Positions 15,463 through 49,571 of a stretch of DNA of 49,976 bases are shown one piece after another. Within the stretch, counting starts at the first letter, position 1. Each line of letters opens with the position of its first letter. The DNA comes from a virus. The notes under the pieces are model-generated. The model saw only the letters and a program-made list of their open reading frames with translations, had not been told where the DNA came from and did no database searches. The DNA is taken from positions 1-49,976 of IMG/VR virus record IMGVR_UViG_3300023174_000239; one strand, 5' to 3'. A program made the translations under genes and the position numbers.

Positions 15463-16252
15463 TAATTTTAATTGGTGGCACTCAATACAAGGATTTTCTG
15501 AAGAACTTGACATAAGAGAAGTACCAATAAGAGATGGCTCAGACTACAAGGTAAACTCTAATAACTACCGTTGTGATGAATTCCTAACAAATCATAAAGG
15601 CAAGCATGTGCTTTTTTCTGGATGCTCTAATACCTATGGAATTGGTTTAAAAAAAGAAGAAATCTGGGCTTATAAAGTTTATAATGAAATAAATAAAATA
15701 GAAAGTTCTTCTGGATATTTTAATATTGGTTTAAATGGAAATAATATTATTAACTCTATTTTAAACATTTTTAAATATTGTAAAAAATTTGGAAATCCAG
15801 ATACAATTTTTATTAATTTACCATGTCATTCAAGATTTTTTGATTTTGAAAAAAATGATATGACTTATAAAATAAAATCATATAATAATTTTTATGAAAA
15901 TTATTACATAAATAGATTAACAATCTATAATTATTATTTTATGCTTGAACAATATTGTAAAACAAATAATATACAATTATTATCTTTTACATGGAACTTG
16001 TATGACAATTATCATTTTAATAGAAATAAAAAAATTTTTATTAAATCAACAAATGATACTTTTAAAGAATATAATTTTGAAACATTTTATTATATAGAAA
16101 AAAAAACGTTAGATAATGATTTATTTTTATTAAAACAAAAACATGATAATTTATTTTTTGATATAGCAAGAGATAATAAGCATAGAGGAAATGGAATACA
16201 TTTGTATTGGTCAAATTTTATTTATAATAAATATTTAGAAAAAAATAAATGA
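15452..16252 (+). CDS. SGNH/GDSL-hydrolase-like protein
   Basis: Protein of 266 residues. HVLFSGCSNTYGIGL resembles block I of SGNH hydrolases (GDSxxxG, with the catalytic Ser), FNIGLNGNNI resembles the Asn block, and ARDNKHRGNGIH near the C-terminus fits the D-x-x-H pair. Such enzymes deacylate or acylate sugars. The gene is very AT-rich and ends in a 4-base overlap with the carbamoyltransferase, so the two probably act on the same glycan. Substrate unknown. The motif match is moderate because the first Asp of block I is replaced by Cys. Confidence 0.6.
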   Translation: MSTDNFNWWHSIQGFSEELDIREVPIRDGSDYKVNSNNYRCDEFLTNHKGKHVLFSGCSNTYGIGLKKEEIWAYKVYNEINKIESSSGYFNIGLNGNNIINSILNIFKYCKKFGNPDTIFINLPCHSRFFDFEKNDMTYKIKSYNNFYENYYINRLTIYNYYFMLEQYCKTNNIQLLSFTWNLYDNYHFNRNKKIFIKSTNDTFKEYNFETFYYIEKKTLDNDLFLLKQKHDNLFFDIARDNKHRGNGIHLYWSNFIYNKYLEKNK

Positions 16253-17673
16253 TTATTCTTGGTATTAATGAAACCTCTCACGATGCATCAATCTCATTAA
16301 TTAAAAATGGAAAGATACTATTTGCAGGACATGCAGAAAGATATAGCAAAAAGAAAAATGATTGGTACGTTAATGATAATCTAATCCAGGATGCATTGCA
16401 ATATGGTAAACCAGACTATGTTGCATATTACGAAAAACCATTATTAAAAAAATCAAGACTTTTTTTTAGTGGTGGCTCAGGAGACTGGCTTCCAAAATTT
16501 AAAATAGATAACATTCCAAGAAAATCATTTAAGCATCATTACTCTCATGCCTGTGCTGGGTACTTTACAAGCAAGTTTGATGATGCAGCAATTGTAGTTA
16601 TTGACGCAATAGGAGAATATAACACTTCAACAATTTGGGTTGGCGAAAGTGAAAAAATTAAACTTAGGTATAAACAAAACTATCCAGTTAGTTTTGGATT
16701 ATTTTATTCTGCTTTTACACAACTAATTGGACTTATGCCTAACCAGGAAGAATATATTATGATGGGCATGGCAGCCTATGGAGACTGGACAAGATATTAT
16801 AAACAGGTAGATAAGTACTTTCCAAAATATAATAAACAAAAATATAATTTTCACAAAGGAATTAATGACTGGGGAATGCAAATAACTGAACAAGATAGGT
16901 TTGATATTGCTGCTGCAGTTCAGGTTGTTTACGAACAAAGGCTAAATGATTTTATGTGTATGGCTTATAACCTAACTGGCAAAGAGAATCTTGTATTTAT
17001 GGGTGGTTGCGCTTTAAACTCTTCTGCCAATACATTGTTATGGAATATATTTAGTGATGTTTGGATTATGCCCAACCCAGGAGATGCTGGAAGTTCTTTG
17101 GGAGCAGCAGCAGCCCTGTATGGAAAACATATTGAATGGAAAGATCCGTACCTAGGTCACGATTTAGGCGGAGAATATCCAGTTGATAAAATAATTGACG
17201 GTATATTAAAAAATGGAATAGTAGCAGTGGCAACTGGAAGAGCAGAATATGGACCAAGAGCATTAGGAAATAGAAGCATTCTTGCTGATCCAAGAGACCC
17301 AAATATAAAAAATAAAGTTAATTTAATTAAAGAAAGAGAAATATTTAGGCCATTTGCCCCTGTAGTCATGGAAGAATATGCAAATAAATGGTTTGATATG
17401 AATTTTAATTCTCCGTATATGCAATATACAGTAAAATGTTTACAGCCAGAAAAAATACCATCCGTTGTCCATGCTGACGGAACATCTAGAGTTCAAACTG
17501 TAAATAAAGATCAACACTTAGGGCTTTGGACCGTTCTTGAAAAATTTTATAAAATAACTGGAATTCCTGTTTTACTTAATACTAGTTTAAACATTAAGGG
17601 ACAACCATTGTTAAATGATAAAAATGATATTTTTTTGTGGGAAAAAAAGTACAATAACAACATTATTAGATGA
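16249..17673 (+). CDS. O-carbamoyltransferase (NodU/CmcH/TobZ family)
   Basis: Protein of 474 residues. The N-terminal Kae1-like domain starts ILGINETSHDASISL and contains HHYSHACAGYFTS (metal-binding His), VVIDAIGEYNTSTIW and MGGCALNSSAN. The C-terminal YrdC-like region has GRAEYGPRALGNRSILADPR and IREREIFRPFAPVV-type sequence. The family makes carbamoyl-adenylate and transfers the carbamoyl group to sugar hydroxyls (Nod factors, tobramycin, glycans). The last residues (NDIFLWEKKYNNNIIR) look unusual and another frame continues with family-like sequence, so a small frameshift is possible. It overlaps the SGNH-like gene by 4 bases. Confidence 0.9.
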   Translation: MIILGINETSHDASISLIKNGKILFAGHAERYSKKKNDWYVNDNLIQDALQYGKPDYVAYYEKPLLKKSRLFFSGGSGDWLPKFKIDNIPRKSFKHHYSHACAGYFTSKFDDAAIVVIDAIGEYNTSTIWVGESEKIKLRYKQNYPVSFGLFYSAFTQLIGLMPNQEEYIMMGMAAYGDWTRYYKQVDKYFPKYNKQKYNFHKGINDWGMQITEQDRFDIAAAVQVVYEQRLNDFMCMAYNLTGKENLVFMGGCALNSSANTLLWNIFSDVWIMPNPGDAGSSLGAAAALYGKHIEWKDPYLGHDLGGEYPVDKIIDGILKNGIVAVATGRAEYGPRALGNRSILADPRDPNIKNKVNLIKEREIFRPFAPVVMEEYANKWFDMNFNSPYMQYTVKCLQPEKIPSVVHADGTSRVQTVNKDQHLGLWTVLEKFYKITGIPVLLNTSLNIKGQPLLNDKNDIFLWEKKYNNNIIR

Positions 17674-30090: not shown

Positions 30091-30783
30091 ATGGATTTTG
30101 TTTATATTTGCAAAGAAGGTATTAACGAAGAATTAAAATATTCAATTAGATCTGTCGTTGAAAGTTTTCCAGAAGCAAATATATGGGTTGTTGGTGGCAA
30201 GCCTGACTGGTATATAGGAAATTATATAGAAGTAGAACAAAAAGAATCAAAATATAAAAATGCTGTAAAAAATTTACAAACAATTTGTTTTTCACAAGAA
30301 ATATCAGAATCGTTTATTTTAATGAATGATGACTTTTATATTATTAAAAAAATAAATAAGATAGAAAATTTTCATAGTGGATTACTGTTAGATAAGATAA
30401 ACTTATATCAAAAACTTAATGGTAACTCTCAGTACACCAGAAAACTCTCAGGCACATATAAAAAACTTAAAGCGTTGGGATTTGAGAACCCCTTAGACTA
30501 TGAACTCCACGTCCCCATGATTATGGAAAAAGAAAAATTAAAGGTAGTTTTAGAACTTTTAGATCAATTTTTATGGAGATCTATATATGGAAACAAGTTT
30601 GATGTCGGTGGCACACAGATGGAGGACGTTAAAGTTTACAATTCTGGACCATTAGTTCTTAAGTCTTATAATTTAAACATAAATGATCATACTTATTTGT
30701 CTAGTGCCGACAGTTCATTTAATAATATATTTAATAAAATACTTAAGATCAAGTTTGATAAAAAAACTAAATTTGAGAAATAA
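30091..30783 (+). CDS. Stealth/GT-like protein
   Basis: Protein of 230 residues. DFVYICKEGINEELKYSIRS and ANIWVVGGKPDWY at the start, followed by ESFILMNDDFYI, resemble conserved region 2 of Stealth proteins (bacterial capsule hexose-1-phosphotransferases: D-V-Y-x-W-V-N-G and FNDDMF). It would transfer a sugar phosphate. The C-terminal part has HVPMIMEKEKL. AT-rich; its end overlaps the opposite-strand glycosyltransferase by 17 bases. Assignment moderate. Confidence 0.65.
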   Translation: MDFVYICKEGINEELKYSIRSVVESFPEANIWVVGGKPDWYIGNYIEVEQKESKYKNAVKNLQTICFSQEISESFILMNDDFYIIKKINKIENFHSGLLLDKINLYQKLNGNSQYTRKLSGTYKKLKALGFENPLDYELHVPMIMEKEKLKVVLELLDQFLWRSIYGNKFDVGGTQMEDVKVYNSGPLVLKSYNLNINDHTYLSSADSSFNNIFNKILKIKFDKKTKFEK

Positions 30784-31804
30784 GTTCTAAATATTTGTCT
30801 TTAAGTATTGTTGGTGCAAAATTGTTAAATCCTAAATCATAGGCCTGTTGTTTATAATTAGTTTTATCATTGATAGACATATACTTATCAATTGTTTGTG
30901 CTAACAAAACATTGTTTGCTTCAAATAAATTAATTCTAACCTTTGTTCTAATTGTTCCTATAGAATCTGACTCAATTAACCAATCTTGTGGCAAGATCTG
31001 ATTATTAGGTGAAACATTTGTCATAAAAACGGGAAGACCAGAAAGCAGAGCCTCATTCATTGGCAAACACAGTCCCGCATATCGTCTTGGTAATACCATA
31101 GCATCAAAGCCGTTATACATATCTTCCCTGTTTTCTGGGTTACCAATTTCAATCTTTAACCTTGAATCTGTTACATTAGTTGTTATTTCGCTTTGACTTT
31201 TAATAACTAATTCATAATCTGCTTTGGAGTGCTTTAACATATTTATTACGGTTTCAGTACCGTTTCTATCTTTCGCTGCTTTCTTTCCAGCAATGTGTAA
31301 TAGTCTATTGTGCGATTTAAAAATATTATTGTTTTTTGCAGTTGCAAACAACTCAGGAGTAGTTGGGGGTGGAAGATGAATTACCTTTGTTCTATCTCCA
31401 AACATACTTTGAATTGTTTCAATTTGCCATAAACTAGGAGATAGCAAGATAGTTGGTAGTGGTAGTTCTGGGTTTGTTAAGTGGCCAAACAATTCATAAT
31501 TATACTGAAGAATAGTTTTTACCCCACGCCTATTTGCAAACCTTATAAAGTTTTGATCGTAAAAGGTTTCGCAACTTAATACAACATCTACATCTCCTAA
31601 AAACATTTTTATTTGTTGAATAGATGGAAAACCTTGTGTTTTAATACAACTATACTTGTCATACCATTCTGGGTGTTGTTTGTTTTTATTAAACGGGGTA
31701 GAGTCAATTAAAAGAATCTTATCAGGATTAAGCATATTAACTAACTCTCTAGTCTGATTACCAAGGCCAGTGTTGTCTGATCTTGCTATGATTCCTAGTC
31801 TCAT
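30767..31804 (-). CDS. GT4-like glycosyltransferase (GT-B)
   Basis: Protein of 345 residues. MRLGIIARSDNTGLGNQTRE is an N-terminal Rossmann start with the GLGNQT loop; RRYAGLCLPMNEALLSGLPV is the C-terminal E-x7-E nucleotide-sugar site of GT4 enzymes. It is the last gene of the minus-strand operon and its stop lies inside the plus-strand gene. Likely extends a surface polysaccharide. Confidence 0.85.
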   Translation of the reverse strand: MRLGIIARSDNTGLGNQTRELVNMLNPDKILLIDSTPFNKNKQHPEWYDKYSCIKTQGFPSIQQIKMFLGDVDVVLSCETFYDQNFIRFANRRGVKTILQYNYELFGHLTNPELPLPTILLSPSLWQIETIQSMFGDRTKVIHLPPPTTPELFATAKNNNIFKSHNRLLHIAGKKAAKDRNGTETVINMLKHSKADYELVIKSQSEITTNVTDSRLKIEIGNPENREDMYNGFDAMVLPRRYAGLCLPMNEALLSGLPVFMTNVSPNNQILPQDWLIESDSIGTIRTKVRINLFEANNVLLAQTIDKYMSINDKTNYKQQAYDLGFNNFAPTILKDKYLELISQI

Positions 31805-32562
31805 TCTTTATACCCCCAAGCATCATCATCCTTAGTATATTTTCTTGTACCCTGACGACCATCTAAATGGTAAGAACGTTTGATCTGTCCTTCTGGGTGA
31901 TAAATCCAAAGTTTGTGTGTATCCCATCCTTTTTGACTAAAAGCATTATAAGGAAAAATATCATCTTGAACCTTGCCGTGAAAGTTATCCTCAATAAAGG
32001 TTTTTTCATCAGAGAATGGTAAAACTATATCTTTATAATATTTTACAGTACTTAAGTGTGGTCTCTGACTCCACTGTGCTGTTTTCATAAAGCCATTCTC
32101 TAACCCTATCATAAGGTGTTTATGTGGCTCTGGAATTTCTGATTCGTGATGGAAACGAATAGTATTGGCATGACCAAGTTCTAACATGTCTAAACACTTT
32201 TGCCAATTAATTTCATAATCTGTAACTAAAGGTGCATCACCTTCAACATAAAGCATTGCTGAAGTATCTATAAGTTTAATAGTTTTTTTCATCATTGTGG
32301 TTTGATGGCTATGTTCATCAAAAATTATTGGTAGTATATTTTTATATTGGTGTAGGCATTTCCACAATATGCGGTTTTTATATTCATCGTAATCTTTTTT
32401 ACGATTAAATTGTTCATCTCTTAATCCATCTATTTGCATAATTATTTCATTGTCTGGAAAATGAAATCGTATATCATTAATAGTTTGTTCTATCATTGCA
32501 GTATTAGGATGATCTGGAATTACAGATGTTGCAATAATTATAGTTATATCTCTTTTATGCAT
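31801..32562 (-). CDS. GT-A-type glycosyltransferase-like protein
   Basis: Protein of 253 residues. DITIIIATSVIPDHPNTAMI is a typical first strand-helix, LYVEGDAPLVTDYEINW contains an acidic EGDAP triplet in the DXD position, and the end holds HPEGQIKRSYHLDGRQG. It overlaps the downstream GT4-like gene by four bases and the upstream gene by eight. The family is not a standard GT2 match; glycan-related by context. Confidence 0.65.
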   Translation of the reverse strand: MHKRDITIIIATSVIPDHPNTAMIEQTINDIRFHFPDNEIIMQIDGLRDEQFNRKKDYDEYKNRILWKCLHQYKNILPIIFDEHSHQTTMMKKTIKLIDTSAMLYVEGDAPLVTDYEINWQKCLDMLELGHANTIRFHHESEIPEPHKHLMIGLENGFMKTAQWSQRPHLSTVKYYKDIVLPFSDEKTFIEDNFHGKVQDDIFPYNAFSQKGWDTHKLWIYHPEGQIKRSYHLDGRQGTRKYTKDDDAWGYKE

Positions 32563-33403
32563 TTATTTGCCTCATTAATTTAATGCTAAGATCTCTTTTG
32601 TATTTTATCCACCAACAAACTACTTGATGCATATTTTGTGGATAGTTTTCAAGCAATCCAGGAATTATTTTTTTTAAATTATGCCAATTATCTGTAACCT
32701 GTATTGGAAAATCCGTACCAAAAACAAGAGTAAAGAAGTTTGTTTCTTGCATTTTTGAGTCTAACTTATCTCCTACTGGCAAACAAAGCATTTCTATAGC
32801 CTCATAAAATCTAAAAGAATCTATTACCTCTGCACCACTTGGACACGGAATAATTTTACTAATGAGCATTTTGTCATAATACACTTTAGGAACTAAGCCT
32901 TGTGCAAACCCAGTAGTTGGTTCATAAATAGAGTTTGGTATTGATGGCATGACTTCTGCTAACTCTTTTCTTCTTACATGAGTTATTTGTCCCGCAAAAA
33001 ATGCATCATAAGATTTATCTTGATACTCTGGTAAATTTTTACTTAGGTGCTGTGGAACACCAAGGGCCAACCTATTATATTTTTTATGTTTATTGTGAGG
33101 GCATGCAATCCATATCTCAATATTGTTATGTTTAATCTTATCTACATCAAAAGATCCACTTTCATCACCAGTAATAAACAAGACTACTCTGCCTATTTTA
33201 TTTAACTCATCTGATATTAGTTCCTCATGACCTATATTTTGTGGTCCAGGCACAACGACAAAGGCTCTATCTTTAGGAAATAATGCTGTAACTCTTTCTG
33301 GAATAATTTTATTTTTATCAAAAAACTCTTTTAGTAATCCGTAGTCCCACTTATCAGCAGCACAATCTTCTTCTTTAACTGAATAAAGATATGCGTTAAT
33401 CAT
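32555..33403 (-). CDS. Exostosin-like (GT47-type) glycosyltransferase
   Basis: Protein of 282 residues from ATG 33403, chosen because GGAGA lies upstream and the longer frame runs into the preceding gene. AFFAGQITHVRRKELAEV and IIPCPSGAEVIDSFRFYEAI match the exostosin pattern (G-x-R...RR, CP-G...S-R-YEA). It probably adds a sugar to a growing chain. It overlaps the deacetylase gene upstream by eight bases. Confidence 0.75.
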   Translation of the reverse strand: MINAYLYSVKEEDCAADKWDYGLLKEFFDKNKIIPERVTALFPKDRAFVVVPGPQNIGHEELISDELNKIGRVVLFITGDESGSFDVDKIKHNNIEIWIACPHNKHKKYNRLALGVPQHLSKNLPEYQDKSYDAFFAGQITHVRRKELAEVMPSIPNSIYEPTTGFAQGLVPKVYYDKMLISKIIPCPSGAEVIDSFRFYEAIEMLCLPVGDKLDSKMQETNFFTLVFGTDFPIQVTDNWHNLKKIIPGLLENYPQNMHQVVCWWIKYKRDLSIKLMRQINA

Positions 33404-34037
33404 TTTTAATTCTCCATATTTTTTCTTCTGCAATAAGTTTTCCAATTAATTCTTCATTTATATATGATGGATTATCTACATACGCTATTTGCGAGTTATA
33501 TTTTTTTATTGCATCAATCTTATGTTGTGTAAAATTAACACTAAGACTCTCTAAATTATAAATTGAATTAATCTTTTCTAACCTTGATTTATATAGTTCT
33601 GGATACGCTAACCGATATGGTAGTTCTGCATAAACAAAGAATGTACAGTTATACTGGCTTATAATTTCAAATAAACAATCACTTAGTAGTATGTGATCTG
33701 GGTGATGTATTCCAAGTGGAATAAAGACATTCAGATTAGTAACTTCTTTTACATCGTGTTTAACAATAATTTCTTTAATCCAACTAATCAATAAAGATTC
33801 ATCTTGTTTTCCATAAACATCATCTAACAAATCTCCATTAATACTTTTAGCATTTATCATAGAGCAGGCTTCATCATGCTCTTTTCTTAATGTTATGTGT
33901 TTTTTATATCCAATATCATCTGTTGGTATGCCAGCAAAAGCAGCAGCAATTGTGAAAATATTATCATTATCAATAATATAATCACCTAATGAAAAGATTG
34001 CATCATCTGTGTGTGCACAAAATATTAGATTATTCAT
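33396..34037 (-). CDS. PIG-L/LmbE-type N-deacetylase
   Basis: Protein of 213 residues from ATG 34037 (GAGG 11 bases upstream). Zinc and catalytic residues: CAHTDDAIFSLG (family AHPDDE), RKEHDEACSMI and LGIHHPDHILLSD with H-x-x-D-H. These enzymes remove N-acetyl groups from amino sugars (mycothiol, teichoic or lipid precursors). Intact motifs except Glu to Ala in HPDDE. It fits a surface-sugar modification operon. Confidence 0.85.
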   Translation of the reverse strand: MNNLIFCAHTDDAIFSLGDYIIDNDNIFTIAAAFAGIPTDDIGYKKHITLRKEHDEACSMINAKSINGDLLDDVYGKQDESLLISWIKEIIVKHDVKEVTNLNVFIPLGIHHPDHILLSDCLFEIISQYNCTFFVYAELPYRLAYPELYKSRLEKINSIYNLESLSVNFTQHKIDAIKKYNSQIAYVDNPSYINEELIGKLIAEEKIWRIKND

Positions 34038-34737
34038 AAAATAAATGTACCTCATGTTGATAATCTAAAAGAGTTTCTTTATACCCAAACCCCTTTATCC
34101 ATTGTCTAAGATTATATAAAGATTCATTCCATTGTTGTAGCATAAACTCAGGGTGTCCAGATAACCAAATCTTAGGTTTGTACTCTCTAATAGCCCTCTC
34201 AGCCCCTTTTAGGACCTTCCATTCGCTACCCTCTACGTCCAAGCAAATGGCGGTAGGCGGTTTAATCAATAAATTATAAACGCAATTATCTATAGTTGTT
34301 TGACCATAATTATCTCCTTCAAGATACAACTCTTTGAATCCATGTGCTGCTTCAATTTCACTATCAGCCTCTGGTGGCCATTCATTATAATAAAAACGTG
34401 CAAGATCATTTGTTTTATCAGAAGCAAATCCAGGAATACAAGTCATTGGCAATTTTAATTTATTTGCAGACCAAGTTTCTGGAAGATGAGACCAAACCTT
34501 TGGATTTGGTTCAAAGAGTACAACCTCTGCTCCCCACATTTGACATAATGCTGGAAACTCTCCTTCTTCTGCACCAACATAATAAACAATATCTTTTTTA
34601 CCAATATGTTTATTCATTGATTTAAGTCTTAACTTTTCCCAACCTGCTTCACTATGCCATTCTGGTCTATATGCACGGTGTTTTGGAAGCACAATTTCAA
34701 ACTCTCCATTTAAAATTGTTTTAATCATCTCTATCAT
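34030..34737 (-). CDS. FkbM-family methyltransferase
   Basis: Protein of 235 residues. DIVYYVGAEEGEFPALCQMW is the SAM site, VVLFEPNPKVW the second motif, TTIDNCV and AICLDVEGSEWKVLKGAERA the FkbM signature. FkbM enzymes O-methylate sugars or polyketides. It overlaps both neighbours by a few bases. Confidence 0.88.
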   Translation of the reverse strand: MIEMIKTILNGEFEIVLPKHRAYRPEWHSEAGWEKLRLKSMNKHIGKKDIVYYVGAEEGEFPALCQMWGAEVVLFEPNPKVWSHLPETWSANKLKLPMTCIPGFASDKTNDLARFYYNEWPPEADSEIEAAHGFKELYLEGDNYGQTTIDNCVYNLLIKPPTAICLDVEGSEWKVLKGAERAIREYKPKIWLSGHPEFMLQQWNESLYNLRQWIKGFGYKETLLDYQHEVHLFYE

Positions 34738-35243
34738 TTCATTGCCTCCACAAAATAAAATTCATGCTCTCTTGTGTCAAGTTCATATATTTTTTCATTT
34801 GAATATTTTGTTTGTTTAAATTGTGTTTCAGCAAGGTCATTAAAACCAACAGCCTGCAGTTTATATTGCAATGCTTTACTTGTTAACAATGATGCCGATT
34901 GTGAATACCAAGTTAGCCATGCAGAAAATCTTTTATCTAAGTCATCTTCTGAATTAGGAAAAAAGTTAATGTTGTTATTTTTATATGCATCAAATCCAGA
35001 CACGATATCTGGAAGACTAATTCTTACAACTCCATTTGGCTTTAAGACTCTATAAAATTCTGACAACACCTTTTCAATATCATGATACTTAACACAACAA
35101 ATTATTGCATGACAAACAAGAGTATCGCAAGAGTTGTCAGGGATTAAACTTAAATCTTTATATTCAGTTTTAAACTCTGGATCAAGATCTATGTTGGTCC
35201 AATTGGAAGGCTGAATGCTTCCACATCCAAAGTTTATATTCAC
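34734..35243 (-). CDS. SAM-dependent methyltransferase (Methyltransf_11 type)
   Basis: Protein of 169 residues. MNINFGCGSIQPSNWTNIDL is the glycine-rich motif I with the acidic partner, SLIPDNSCDTLVCHAIICCV the post-II region and VLSEFYRVLKPNGVVRISLP motif III. Short but complete. Two methyltransferases in tandem suggest two methylation sites on the same glycan. Confidence 0.85.
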   Translation of the reverse strand: MNINFGCGSIQPSNWTNIDLDPEFKTEYKDLSLIPDNSCDTLVCHAIICCVKYHDIEKVLSEFYRVLKPNGVVRISLPDIVSGFDAYKNNNINFFPNSEDDLDKRFSAWLTWYSQSASLLTSKALQYKLQAVGFNDLAETQFKQTKYSNEKIYELDTREHEFYFVEAMK

Positions 35244-36169
35244 TTACTGTCCATGTAAAAATCAACAATTTCTTTCATGCTATCTTTCATAGTATGACTT
35301 GGCTTCCAATTAGTTTTTTCTTGTAGCAAGGACGAATTCATAAACTGTTTCTTAATCTCAAATCCATCACTCTTAATTATTTCATGTTTAATTTCTTTAC
35401 CAATTACACCTTTAATAATGTTAAATACTTCAAGCGTGGAATATCTTTCTCCAGACGATATATTAAATGATGGAATGTTGTTTGTTTCTTCTCCGTATGC
35501 AAGAATACTAGCGTATGCTGAAACAACATCTTTAACATTAATGTATTCTCTAATATCTCTTCCATCATTTCTTATTGTAAATAATGCATTTTCTTTGTAT
35601 GCTTTTACAACTCCAGGAATTAATCTTTGTGTATTGTTATCGCCAGTTCCATAAATGTTGCAGGCGCGGGTAGTAACAATTGGCATACTATAAGTATTTC
35701 TATATGAGTTACACATAATATCTGTAATAGACTTAGATGCATCGTAAGGATATATTCCATTAAGAATGTGGTCTTCAAAGTATTCATCATTAGTTAACTC
35801 ACCATAGGCTTTGTCGCTAGAAGCAACAATAATTGACTTGCACTCTTTATATTCCCTTAATGATTCAAGCACATTTAAGGTACCAACAGCGTTTGTATAA
35901 AATGTATTGTATGGGTATTTGATTGAATCATAAGCCTGTGTCTGTGCTGCAAGGTGAATAAAATAATCTGGTCTTGATTTTTCTATAAAGAAATCAACAT
36001 CTGTTTTATTATTAATACTTCCATATACTCTGTTTACATCTTTAGAGAGTTCTGTGCGACTATGCTCATCTTTTAGCAGTACAAATACGTTATAACCTAT
36101 TGATAGGTAGTGGTTTGATAGGTGAGATCCAAGTAGTCCTGTGGCACCAGTTATTGCTATATTTTTCAT
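35240..36169 (-). CDS. NAD-dependent sugar epimerase/4,6-dehydratase (SDR)
   Basis: Protein of 309 residues. MKNIAITGATGLLGSHLSNH carries the GxxGxxG loop, FIHLAAQT the nucleotide contact, VASSDKAYGE the catalytic Ser-Asp pair and YDASKSI the YxxxK motif; RACNIYGTGDNNTQRLIPGV is the substrate-side signature of CDP-glucose or GDP-mannose 4,6-dehydratases. It makes or epimerises a nucleotide-activated deoxy-sugar. It overlaps its neighbours by four bases on each side. Confidence 0.88.
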   Translation of the reverse strand: MKNIAITGATGLLGSHLSNHYLSIGYNVFVLLKDEHSRTELSKDVNRVYGSINNKTDVDFFIEKSRPDYFIHLAAQTQAYDSIKYPYNTFYTNAVGTLNVLESLREYKECKSIIVASSDKAYGELTNDEYFEDHILNGIYPYDASKSITDIMCNSYRNTYSMPIVTTRACNIYGTGDNNTQRLIPGVVKAYKENALFTIRNDGRDIREYINVKDVVSAYASILAYGEETNNIPSFNISSGERYSTLEVFNIIKGVIGKEIKHEIIKSDGFEIKKQFMNSSLLQEKTNWKPSHTMKDSMKEIVDFYMDSK

Positions 36170-37125
36170 TTTACCCCTAGTTCACTTATAATTGTACCCC
36201 ATCTATGAACATAAGTGTGCTCTTTCTTTGTTCTTTCGTGTCCGTTAAGTCTGATGGCTTCTCTTGATACCCCGTCCAACAAATACTTGTCTATCTTATT
36301 TTTTAGATCTTCAAGGTTGCCATGTTCATAAAATACAATTTCATTTTCGTCTTTGAAGTATTCTTCAAGCCCTTTAATGCGAGGGTAGATGGTAAACCCA
36401 CCACGACCAGTACTCTCAAACAACCTATCACTAGTGTAGTAAGGATAGTTAAAATTAATATTTAAACTATCACCTATCGCTACTTTGCTTCTTGCATAGA
36501 TACGGTTTAACGCATCACCACGTACAGTTCCAGTGTCGCCATCTCCACCAACGTGTAGAAATCTTTTGCCGTATGTCTTTCTTAAAAAGTCTATCAATTC
36601 TGGACGGTATTTATGTTCATGATGATAACCCTTACTACCAACAAAGATAATATCGTTTTCAAAGTTATGTGGATCATACTCTTCATGGATATAACATTCT
36701 TTATCATATACTCCAGCAGGTAAGAAGTGTCCTTTGACCTGTGTGTTTTCATTAAACCAATCACACATTAACTTATCTGTAGCAAAGAAGTGACCAATGT
36801 TTGTATAGAAGTCATCATTCTTTAAATCTTTTTCGCGTTCAATCCCAAACCATAAATCTAAATGATAGGTCATGGTCGGTATACCAGCAGACTTTAATTC
36901 TTTTAATACATCCGTCATTGTTTTAGATCCTGGGGTTTGCCATTTATGTGTGTGTACCCATATGAATAGATCAGAGTTTAATGATGTATTTAATATTTCT
37001 TCGCTTGTTGCTTTCTTTTCCTGCAATTTTTGCACGGTATGGCCAAGAGACTCTAAAGACTTAGCATGATGATTCTCACTACTATAAGATACTTCAAAGT
37101 TACCAAGAAAAACTATATTAGCCAT
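36166..37125 (-). CDS. Glycosyltransferase with Glyco_trans_1_2/CgeB-like C-terminus
   Basis: Protein of 319 residues. ANIVFLGNFEVSYSSENHHA is a Rossmann start; the C-terminal SDRLFESTGRGGFTIYPRIK with FKDENEIVFYEHGNLEDL matches the nucleotide-sugar half of Glyco_trans_1_2 (CgeB) GT-B enzymes. It adds the first or an early sugar of the operon's glycan by position. Confidence 0.78.
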   Translation of the reverse strand: MANIVFLGNFEVSYSSENHHAKSLESLGHTVQKLQEKKATSEEILNTSLNSDLFIWVHTHKWQTPGSKTMTDVLKELKSAGIPTMTYHLDLWFGIEREKDLKNDDFYTNIGHFFATDKLMCDWFNENTQVKGHFLPAGVYDKECYIHEEYDPHNFENDIIFVGSKGYHHEHKYRPELIDFLRKTYGKRFLHVGGDGDTGTVRGDALNRIYARSKVAIGDSLNINFNYPYYTSDRLFESTGRGGFTIYPRIKGLEEYFKDENEIVFYEHGNLEDLKNKIDKYLLDGVSREAIRLNGHERTKKEHTYVHRWGTIISELGVK

Positions 37126-39464: not shown

Positions 39465-39641
39465 ATGTGTCCACATTGCAATACCCCGTTAATCCCAATA
39501 TTATACGGATACGCTAACCCTAAATATTTAGATATGCATAAGCAAGGTTTGATATTTTTAGTATCCACTACTTATCATACTAAACATGACCCTACTTCAT
39601 ACTGTAAGAAATGTGAAGAAAGTTTTGATATTAAACTTTAG
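39465..39641 (+). CDS. Zinc-ribbon protein
   Basis: A 58-residue protein: CPHC at the start, then PLIPILYGYANPKYLDM and CKKC near the end, a C-x2-C ... C-x2-C ribbon like small actinobacterial proteins with an LIP-x-LYGYP motif. Its stop lies four bases inside the opposite-strand gene at 39638. Confidence 0.7.
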   Translation: MCPHCNTPLIPILYGYANPKYLDMHKQGLIFLVSTTYHTKHDPTSYCKKCEESFDIKL

Positions 39642-40008: not shown

Positions 40009-40052
40009 GGCGCAAAATAGAATAGCAAACCTTCCAATGCCCTAAGAGGGCA

Positions 40053-40160
40053 CTAGCGGTGAGTGTCCTTCATATGCCTAGCCAATGAGTCGTGAGCAAA
40101 GATAGCCCATCTAAGTTCCCACTCCTTGTTACAGATAGGACAGATAACTGTTCTTGACAT
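40053..40160 (-). CDS. C2H2 zinc-finger mini-protein
   Basis: A 35-residue protein: VICPICNKEWE, then SLARHMKDTHR, a single C2H2 finger of the eukaryote-like Ros type. It begins exactly six bases after a near-consensus promoter. Single fingers of this kind in phages may bind DNA, possibly near the adjacent repeats. Confidence 0.7.
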   Translation of the reverse strand: MSRTVICPICNKEWELRWAIFAHDSLARHMKDTHR

Positions 40161-40166
40161 GATTCT

Positions 40167-40195
40167 ATTATCTCAGATTTTCGCGGGGAAGTCAA
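40167..40195 (-). promoter_or_regulatory. SigA-type promoter, leaderless
   Basis: Minus strand: TTGACT, 17 bases starting TCCCC, GATAAT, six bases, ATG 40160. Confidence 0.82.
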
Positions 40196-41008
40196 AAGTA
40201 TCCTTATAACCCCCAGTGTAATAACAAACCTTATATTCCAGATATGCCTGATATCCCCATATAAAGGTTTGGTAGGTATGTCCAATTACACTGGTTTGAT
40301 ATGGACAATATGAAGCCAGGGCGATGGTTTGATACCCGCTTATTTAAGGCTTGGAAGGCTTTTAAATGCTATCTAAAGTGGTTTGGTAATAGAAATAAAT
40401 CTTACTGATATTTTTTAATTATAGTTAAAAGGGAGGAAAGTGGAGGATAGTGGGTGATTGAGCGATTTTATAGATGGCGTCGTAATCCTCTGGCGGCCAA
40501 ACCTCCCTATCCCAAACCTTCCAAACCTTTCTATCCTGCATATCTGGCATGCATTATACCCCCAAAACCATGGTTTGTCAAACCTTTATAGCCTAAAAAA
40601 ATGCCCCAAAAATATAGCAAAATCTTTTAAAACACCAGGAAAAAATCTAGAAAGGTTTGATAACTATGGTAAAAGTTTTAAATAATTCGCAATTTAAATT
40701 CCCGCTTCGTAATGTCTATTTATACTAGGACTCAGCGCCCCGCGGGGACGCAAAATCGGCGGGGATAAAAAGATATACCAATACTCCTAGTAGTATACAA
40801 ACCATATCTTCTGGATAGAAAGGTTTGGCAGATATGAGGTTTGAAGGTTTGAGATTGGAAGGTTTGAAGGTTTGGTATGAATCTGGAAAATTCTACAGAT
40901 TACGTAATCTCCCACGATCTGGGATTTTTTTGAAAAGGTTCTTAATGTCTTTTAGAGAAATCTATGTCCGTTTTGGGTGGTTTGATATAGTTTACCCGAG
41001 GCGCAGGG

Positions 41009-41275
41009 CTATGCCTGGTCGCCAAGCAACTCGTCAAGGCTTGTCCACTTTTTATCCTCAACACCAAGAGAAGCAACAAATAGATTATATGTTTCATCAA
41101 TGTAGATCTCTGACTGACTTGTTGGCAAAACAATTTCGTTCATTAAGAAATAAGCAAGTGGCAAACCTAAATCGTTATACTCTACAAAATCTTGTAAGTC
41201 CTCATCATCACGATAGTTCATCCACAACTCAGCAAGGATAGTTATTTTGTTTTCAAAAGTATTACCGCCTGCCAT
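41009..41275 (-). CDS. Conserved actinophage protein
   Basis: Protein of 88 residues from ATG 41275 with GAGGAG upstream. KITILAELWMNYRDDEDLQD, LPLAYFLMNEI and IDETYNLFVASLGV look like a conserved helical domain known from actinophage hypothetical proteins. Last gene of its cassette, next to the repeat region. It overlaps the upstream gene by 14 bases. Confidence 0.75.
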   Translation of the reverse strand: MAGGNTFENKITILAELWMNYRDDEDLQDFVEYNDLGLPLAYFLMNEIVLPTSQSEIYIDETYNLFVASLGVEDKKWTSLDELLGDQA

Positions 41276-41495
41276 TGTAAACTCCTCTATCTAATTGATC
41301 AACTTCTTTATTATACTGCATGGCTTCTAAAACCTCATTAGCCCTAGTATAAATAATATGGGGAGAACCCTTTGCTAAATAAAATCCTATGGCTTCTAAG
41401 TCAAGAGTAAAGTCAGATAGCAAAGTAGTTATTCTACCTGCGACCTTTTCCTCTTTACTTATTCCAAGCCTAATAGACCTACGCATAAATCCCAT
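41262..41495 (-). CDS. Small conserved protein
   Basis: Protein of 77 residues: basic start (GFMRRSIRLGISKEEK), then SDFTLDLEAIGFYLAKGSPH and a helical end. ATG 41495 lies six bases after TAGAAT, so leaderless; an internal ATG four codons on is possible. Function unknown. Confidence 0.7.
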   Translation of the reverse strand: MGFMRRSIRLGISKEEKVAGRITTLLSDFTLDLEAIGFYLAKGSPHIIYTRANEVLEAMQYNKEVDQLDRGVYNGRR

Positions 41496-41597: not shown

Positions 41598-41960
41598 CTA
41601 CACAACGGAAAGGACGTCGCTAGGCAAATTATATTTAATAAAACTATCAATGCTCTTATGGTCTACACCATCATGACTAATAGTATTATCTGTAAGGTCA
41701 ATTAATATTGGATGGTCCATAAAACCTAGGTCATTAGGATCGCAGGCATAGATGCCAAACCCTGTCTCATCCAGAACAGAGTCTTGCATCAAGTAACTAA
41801 TGGCCATACGGACGTAGTATTCTTTATCCCCGCTGCGTGGCTTAGCATGCTGCAGGGCCTGAGCAAGATCTTGATACATACTGTCTTCGCCCCAGTGGCT
41901 GTACAGCGCTACTGCTAGATCCTCTGACTGTTTAAAAACGAATGTGCAACGTGCTCCCAT
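41598..41960 (-). CDS. Conserved actinophage protein
   Basis: Protein of 120 residues starting MGARCTFVFKQSEDLAVALY and followed by SHWGE, a start seen in other actinophage proteins. Middle section YYVRMAISYLMQDSVLDETG, C-terminus acidic. GAGGAAG precedes the ATG and TAATG links it to the next gene. Unknown function; alpha/beta globular. Confidence 0.75.
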   Translation of the reverse strand: MGARCTFVFKQSEDLAVALYSHWGEDSMYQDLAQALQHAKPRSGDKEYYVRMAISYLMQDSVLDETGFGIYACDPNDLGFMDHPILIDLTDNTISHDGVDHKSIDSFIKYNLPSDVLSVV

Positions 41961-49515: not shown

Positions 49516-49571
49516 TAATCGCCCTGTGGATAAACCTGTGGAAAACGCCTCGGGCTTTTAGAACAAATGTT

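Follow-up and report, generated by a model that had tools for sequence, protein, structure and literature searches.

What might a virus do with 19 copies of one hexamer crowded into about 1 kb of its DNA? The stretch analysed here, hereafter the window, is a virus fragment of 49,976 bases, and a preliminary description made from its letters alone had pointed to GGTTTG sites on both strands, far above chance, in a candidate replication origin. Counts and shuffles agree on the excess, as the 19 sites in 40026-40984 are to be set against a mean of 0.54 and a maximum of 4 in 2,000 dinucleotide shuffles of the same stretch, and 1-kb windows outside the cluster have at most four each. The GC palindrome described is also there, at 40738. 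However, the context given as usual, AAGGTTTG-(A/G)-TA, was overstated: AAGGTTTG is 5′ of 11 of the 19 sites and (A/G)TA 3′ of seven, with both present in three. That description did not include a promoter, MraZ-type repeats, a DnaA/trio core or the strict orientation of the repeats, all of which are considered below (Table 1).

Table 1. Coordinates of features in and beside the GGTTTG region of the window
Feature	Position	Strand	Remark
Whole region, 19 GGTTTG sites	40026..40984	both	~850 bp without conserved genes; flanked by the 88-aa gene (ends 41009) on one side and variable small ORFs on the other
35-aa C2H2-like ORF	40053..40160	-	not fixed at the locus
GGTTTG block C	40225..40385		beyond core; mostly CAAACC in transcription direction
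Place of relatives' tandem DnaA boxes	40373..40393	-	window has TCTATTACCAAACCACTTTAG, CAAACC, in their stead
AT-rich putative unwinding element	40389..40431	-	~84% AT; invariant CAGTAA in ATCAGTAA (40402-40409 minus)
DnaA-trio-like tract, six N-A-N triplets	40399..40416	-	from relatives; same frame read in window
MraZ-box-like array GGAGGAAAGTGGAGGATAGTGG	40432..40453	+	AAAGTGG-3-ATAGTGG, third unit degenerate
TCGTAAT/ATTACGA	40480..40486	+	nearly invariant, just before core
GGTTTG block B	40498..40527	-	three sites between promoter and core; GGTTTG in transcription direction
Perfect sigma70 promoter TTGACA-17-TATAAT	40581-40553	-	points at core
Palindrome GGTTTGtCAAACC	40572..40584		overlaps promoter -35; palindromic GGTTTG site
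TTCGTAAT, second repeated motif of region	40706..40713	+	
GC-rich element with CCCCGCGGGG (40738-40747)	40717..40800		hairpin z -2.4 in window
GGTTTG block A	40822..40874	+	five sites tiled at 8-16 bp; CAAACC in minus-strand reading direction
88-aa acidic helical protein	41009..41275	-	most constant neighbour, 79/80 loci
77-aa helical protein	41262..41495	-	conserved neighbour, 75/80 loci

From what sort of virus does this DNA come? Its terminase is ~53% identical to the terminases of 131-kb Streptomyces phages, and whiB is present in 7/7 long relatives; on this kinship and the whiB of the relatives the window is taken to be from an actinobacterial phage, probably a freshwater one (compare PMC6802176). 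Elsewhere in the window a plus-strand block has a Nol-like carbamoyltransferase gene (16249-17673; phrog_1601), and 30767-37125 has glycosyltransferase- and methyltransferase-type genes. When IMG/VR was scanned with the protein encoded at 41598-41960, 80 relatives came up, and in most of them, as in the window, the densest GGTTTG window is 0.4-1.3 kb beyond that gene and has 9-24 sites. The cluster stays syntenic even in relatives whose protein identity is as low as 65% and, for long relatives, is the densest GGTTTG window of the contig in five of six, the exception being the GGTTTG-poor G004. Absence of the repeats from close relatives was to count against an origin; instead, the cluster is kept in place there. 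In distant relatives the repeat unit drifts (to ATGGTTTG or TGTTTGA, with a few loci lacking any), which looks like a site tracking a changing protein. In the syntenic regions of L360, L067, L278, L072 and L272 it is TGTTTG that replaces GGTTTG as the commonest repeat, while L242, L288, L306 and others have no repeat, yet keep the core and DnaA boxes. Among GenBank phages there was no DNA match to the window region or to L063, and DSL-LC01, a distant protein relative, has no such cluster. Across the loci compared, conservation indicates that the GGTTTG cluster belongs to a DNA control region shared by a large family of freshwater actinobacterial phages.

Which protein could read the repeats? 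The tiny C2H2 finger gene that had been spotted in the repeat stretch is indeed there, and its product had been proposed as their binder. Homologues, however, are found in just 40 of the 80 relatives, between +1.5 and +5.8 kb, and the full-cluster close relatives L004, L005, L007, L008, L023 and L041 have none in their locus DNA. As it is not fixed at the locus, the C2H2 protein is unlikely to be the binder. Nor, in terms of transcription, does the main early block begin just beyond the cluster, as had been supposed, since its genes are on the minus strand and the block ends there. The 88-aa neighbour was considered as a DNA-binding initiator and set aside, a confident helical model yielding no significant fold match in the PDB; the model of the 77-aa protein is less certain. 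The phages encode a DnaB-like helicase, a DnaG-like primase and PolIII alpha, and no known initiator was found among the genes scanned. A small ORF (ILYIIYHPNYNAIKIGIGDITGKRF...) recurs in 26 of 97 loci on the opposite strand right after the core, and is GIY-YIG-like by eye with no Pfam match, and a 58-aa zinc-ribbon-like ORF (CPHC...CKKC), beside the cluster at 39465-39641 on the plus strand, has variable places in 28 loci.

Read along the minus strand, the direction of transcription, the control region has the order block A (CAAACC), GC-rich element, promoter, block B (GGTTTG), ATTACGA, 22-bp repeat, AT tract with CAGTAA, DnaA boxes (in relatives only) and block C (CAAACC). In the relatives' loci the 100 bp before the core hold 210 GGTTTG and 0 CAAACC, whereas orientation is reversed past it, with 75 CAAACC and 4 GGTTTG in the bins from +50 to +200. 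Same-strand spacings of the sites peak at 8, 15-16 and 31-33 bp, and in block A the degenerate units AGATATG and AGATTGG stand between sites. TCGTAAT/ATTACGA, the second repeated motif (40480, 40707), is enriched in all the relatives' groups. The promoter is the only perfect match on the window's minus strand; of 166 distinct loci, 125 have it in perfect form and 162 have the 17-nt spacer, and the core (40453-40393) is ~100 bp downstream of it. An RNA element was considered and rejected, there being no consensus fold, no Rfam match and no fold better than that of shuffles, and the place of the GC-rich element in relatives has a weak mean hairpin signal. No conserved ORF was found downstream of the core in the relatives' loci.

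It was unbiased motif counting in the relatives that brought up TTATCCACA, a DnaA box. Counts of DnaA boxes, trios and MraZ-type repeats were made on loci retrieved with a protein, with the GGTTTG repeats or with the MraZ-type repeat as query; loci fetched by a DnaA-containing pattern were excluded because that scan was biased by construction, and 106 dereplicated relatives' loci are thus independent of it. In 63 of these 106 a DnaA box, TGTGGATAA, follows the core and trios; in 60 of the 63 it begins 16 nt past the first base of ATCAGTAA, and in 54 a second box comes 11-12 bp further on. In most of the loci, of 4-12 kb, there is no exact box (TTATCCACA or TTGTCCACA) elsewhere. The AT tract adjoins the repeat array, like the A+T-rich opening region of an iteron-type origin, and is conserved in the alignment, with CAGTAA in 42 of 42 aligned sequences. 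Beside the boxes it repeats an A with a period of three over six or seven triplets, and both the strand and the side are those on which DnaA-trios would be expected; on that strand three or more A-centred trios are present within 16 bp. The mean run in relatives, 6.6 triplets with a spacer of 5, compares with 2.8 for shuffled sequence and 1.9 for the other strand, though with three trio centres inside the ATCAGTAA alignment anchor only the flanking centres are independent evidence. Tandem box, spacer and trio make up the basal unwinding rule, and the relatives' tract matches it (PMC8287927).

What of the window itself? Tandem boxes are present in most box-bearing relatives and missing in the window and its clade of 30, and three changes in total are required on the tree built from the neighbouring protein. 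CAAACC is at the box place in 22 of 43 box-less loci versus 4 of 63 box-bearing ones. The window's clade has lost its DnaA boxes. The box-less loci, the window included, keep a trio-like tract (run 6.0), so that the tract may serve another protein, a point against the origin reading. At 49525-49545, between early genes, is TGTGGATAAaccTGTGGAAAA, a DnaA-box pair with one exact member, and comparable trio-less pairs are present in long relatives at ~8-12 kb from the core. Such second sites, ~10 kb off, were considered as alternative origins and rejected, as no trios are beside them.

The other host-type signal is the 22-bp repeat. Known MraZ sites are direct repeats of 7 nt, of the AAAGTG[T/G] type, which in Burkholderia stand 3 nt apart (PMC8475190, PMC7761207), and direct GTG-core heptamers at 10-bp steps are what the phage loci have. 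When 84,980 prokaryote genomes were compared with the 22-bp repeat there were only two exact matches, each immediately upstream of an mraZ gene. Two or more GTGG units spaced at 10-bp steps occur in 104 of the 106 phage loci, and three in 84, a count partly biased by the loci fetched with the MraZ-type repeat and by how the core was located. In the window there are two strict GTGG units, its only GTGG pair at a 10-bp step, and in six long relatives triple GTGG chains are at this core only. For comparison, two or more GTGG at such steps were counted in 48 of 59 regions upstream of mraZ, versus 88 of 1220 windows taken at random from those mraZ loci, and 34 of the 59 have three. No recognisable dnaA or mraZ gene was found in the phages (eight records), which makes host DnaA and host MraZ the likely readers of the phage sites. 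Could their binding be an end in itself, the cluster being a sponge that titrates two host cell-cycle regulators and stops host replication and division? Several host-type sites at one place, in a phage encoding neither regulator, would suit that, but with only 2-4 boxes per genome copy, a fixed geometry beside the AT tract and loss of the boxes in a whole clade, we regard it as highly improbable.

Are these instead the parts of a transcription switch? GGTTTG would then be the operator of a phage repressor or activator, with DnaA and MraZ as factors acting on the promoter and the genes downstream. The palindromic GGTTTG site over the -35 of a perfect promoter fits this, trio-less DnaA boxes also occur ~10 kb off in an early-gene intergenic region, and DnaA and MraZ are both known transcription factors, their boxes acting also as transcription signals, which counts against an origin. 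However, a switch would have no conserved ORF after the core to control, its MraZ-like repeats would be ~100 bp downstream of the promoter and not at the start site, and regulation would not need AT tract, trios and boxes to be spaced as for unwinding; we consider it rather unlikely. In part as there is neither a conserved ORF after the core nor a conserved RNA structure, and in part as AT tract, trios and boxes keep a fixed register, an origin fits better than a promoter region alone. Repeated sites above chance at a conserved place, as in iteron-type origins, are what the loci have, and the earlier idea of an origin with iterons gains from the conserved array and from the paired DnaA boxes beside a trio-type AT tract in distant relatives, while its C2H2 binder falls away. 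The GC-skew check that went with that idea gave no inflection at the cluster, skew following gene direction. Could the region, finally, be a site for packaging (pac) or for partition? Both kinds of site can have iteron-like arrays and AT tracts. Nevertheless, the terminase gene is ~33 kb away, the contigs of many relatives run straight through the region, which is therefore not a genome end, and the DnaA boxes would be left unexplained, so that we give such a site scant probability. The reading we favour, and hold to be probable, is of a composite phage replication origin at which host DnaA (ancestrally), host MraZ, transcription and a phage repeat-binder would all take part.

How might such an origin fire? 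A phage initiator would bind the GGTTTG sites, and the AT tract may be opened with the help of transcription that starts at the promoter and crosses the core, or of the resulting supercoiling. Host DnaA, in box-bearing relatives, would load on the tandem boxes and spread on the trios, as at bacterial oriC, and host MraZ, bound to the GTGG repeats, could time transcription or opening, after which the phage DnaB-like helicase, DnaG-like primase and polymerase would take over. In the window's clade, which no longer has DnaA boxes and often has a GGTTTG site in their place, the phage initiator probably assumed the loading role of DnaA. More tentatively, at slightly less than even chances in our estimation, the origin would link the phage's own repeat-binding initiator with both host replication (DnaA boxes and trios) and host division control (MraZ boxes), and one clade, in swapping DnaA boxes for phage repeats, would have taken a natural step from host- to phage-dependent initiation.

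To our knowledge, the replication origins of uncultured freshwater actinophages are essentially unmapped. In the literature searched, coverage of which is incomplete, neither a DnaA-trio unit in a virus nor MraZ-type repeats at an origin was found. If the reading is right, phage replication is tied to the host cell cycle via two conserved host proteins, the origin of this phage family has a sequence tag, and the box-bearing and box-less phages form a natural series for testing how an origin changes its initiator.

How does the region compare with known systems? The mraZ promoters (PMC8475190, PMC7761207) share with it AAAGTGG-type heptamers with 3-nt spacers, and the phage core, with its MraZ-type repeat AAAGTGGAGG, has 22 bp in exact agreement with the DNA upstream of mraZ in two bacteria; the phage repeats are, however, intergenic and ~100 bp downstream of a promoter, with no mraZ in the phage. 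Phage lambda ori has iterons, an A+T-rich region, transcriptional activation, for which it is the phage precedent, and DnaA-box-like sites near a promoter (PMC3985674, PMC5043065). In contrast, the present region is outside an initiator gene, has other repeats and no O/P homologue found, there being no conserved reading frame over the cluster and no O homologue among the genes scanned. With the basal unwinding system of bacterial oriC (PMC8287927) it has in common tandem DnaA boxes (in most box-bearing relatives), a short spacer and A-centred triplets in an AT tract, but it belongs to a phage without dnaA, is embedded in phage repeats and has lost the boxes in the window's clade. Iteron plasmid origins with DnaA sites (P1 oriR, F, pSC101; PMC5043065), where P1 gives precedent for combining the two, share repeated putative initiator sites, DnaA boxes (in box-bearing relatives) and an A+T-rich opening region. 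Against these, the phage region has no adjacent rep gene recognised, its units are of 6-8 bp in strand-specific blocks on both sides of a core, and MraZ-type repeats and a perfect inward promoter are added. The main interest would be its use of two host cell-cycle signals, one of them lost in the window's clade; otherwise it would be a variant of the iteron/DnaA origin.
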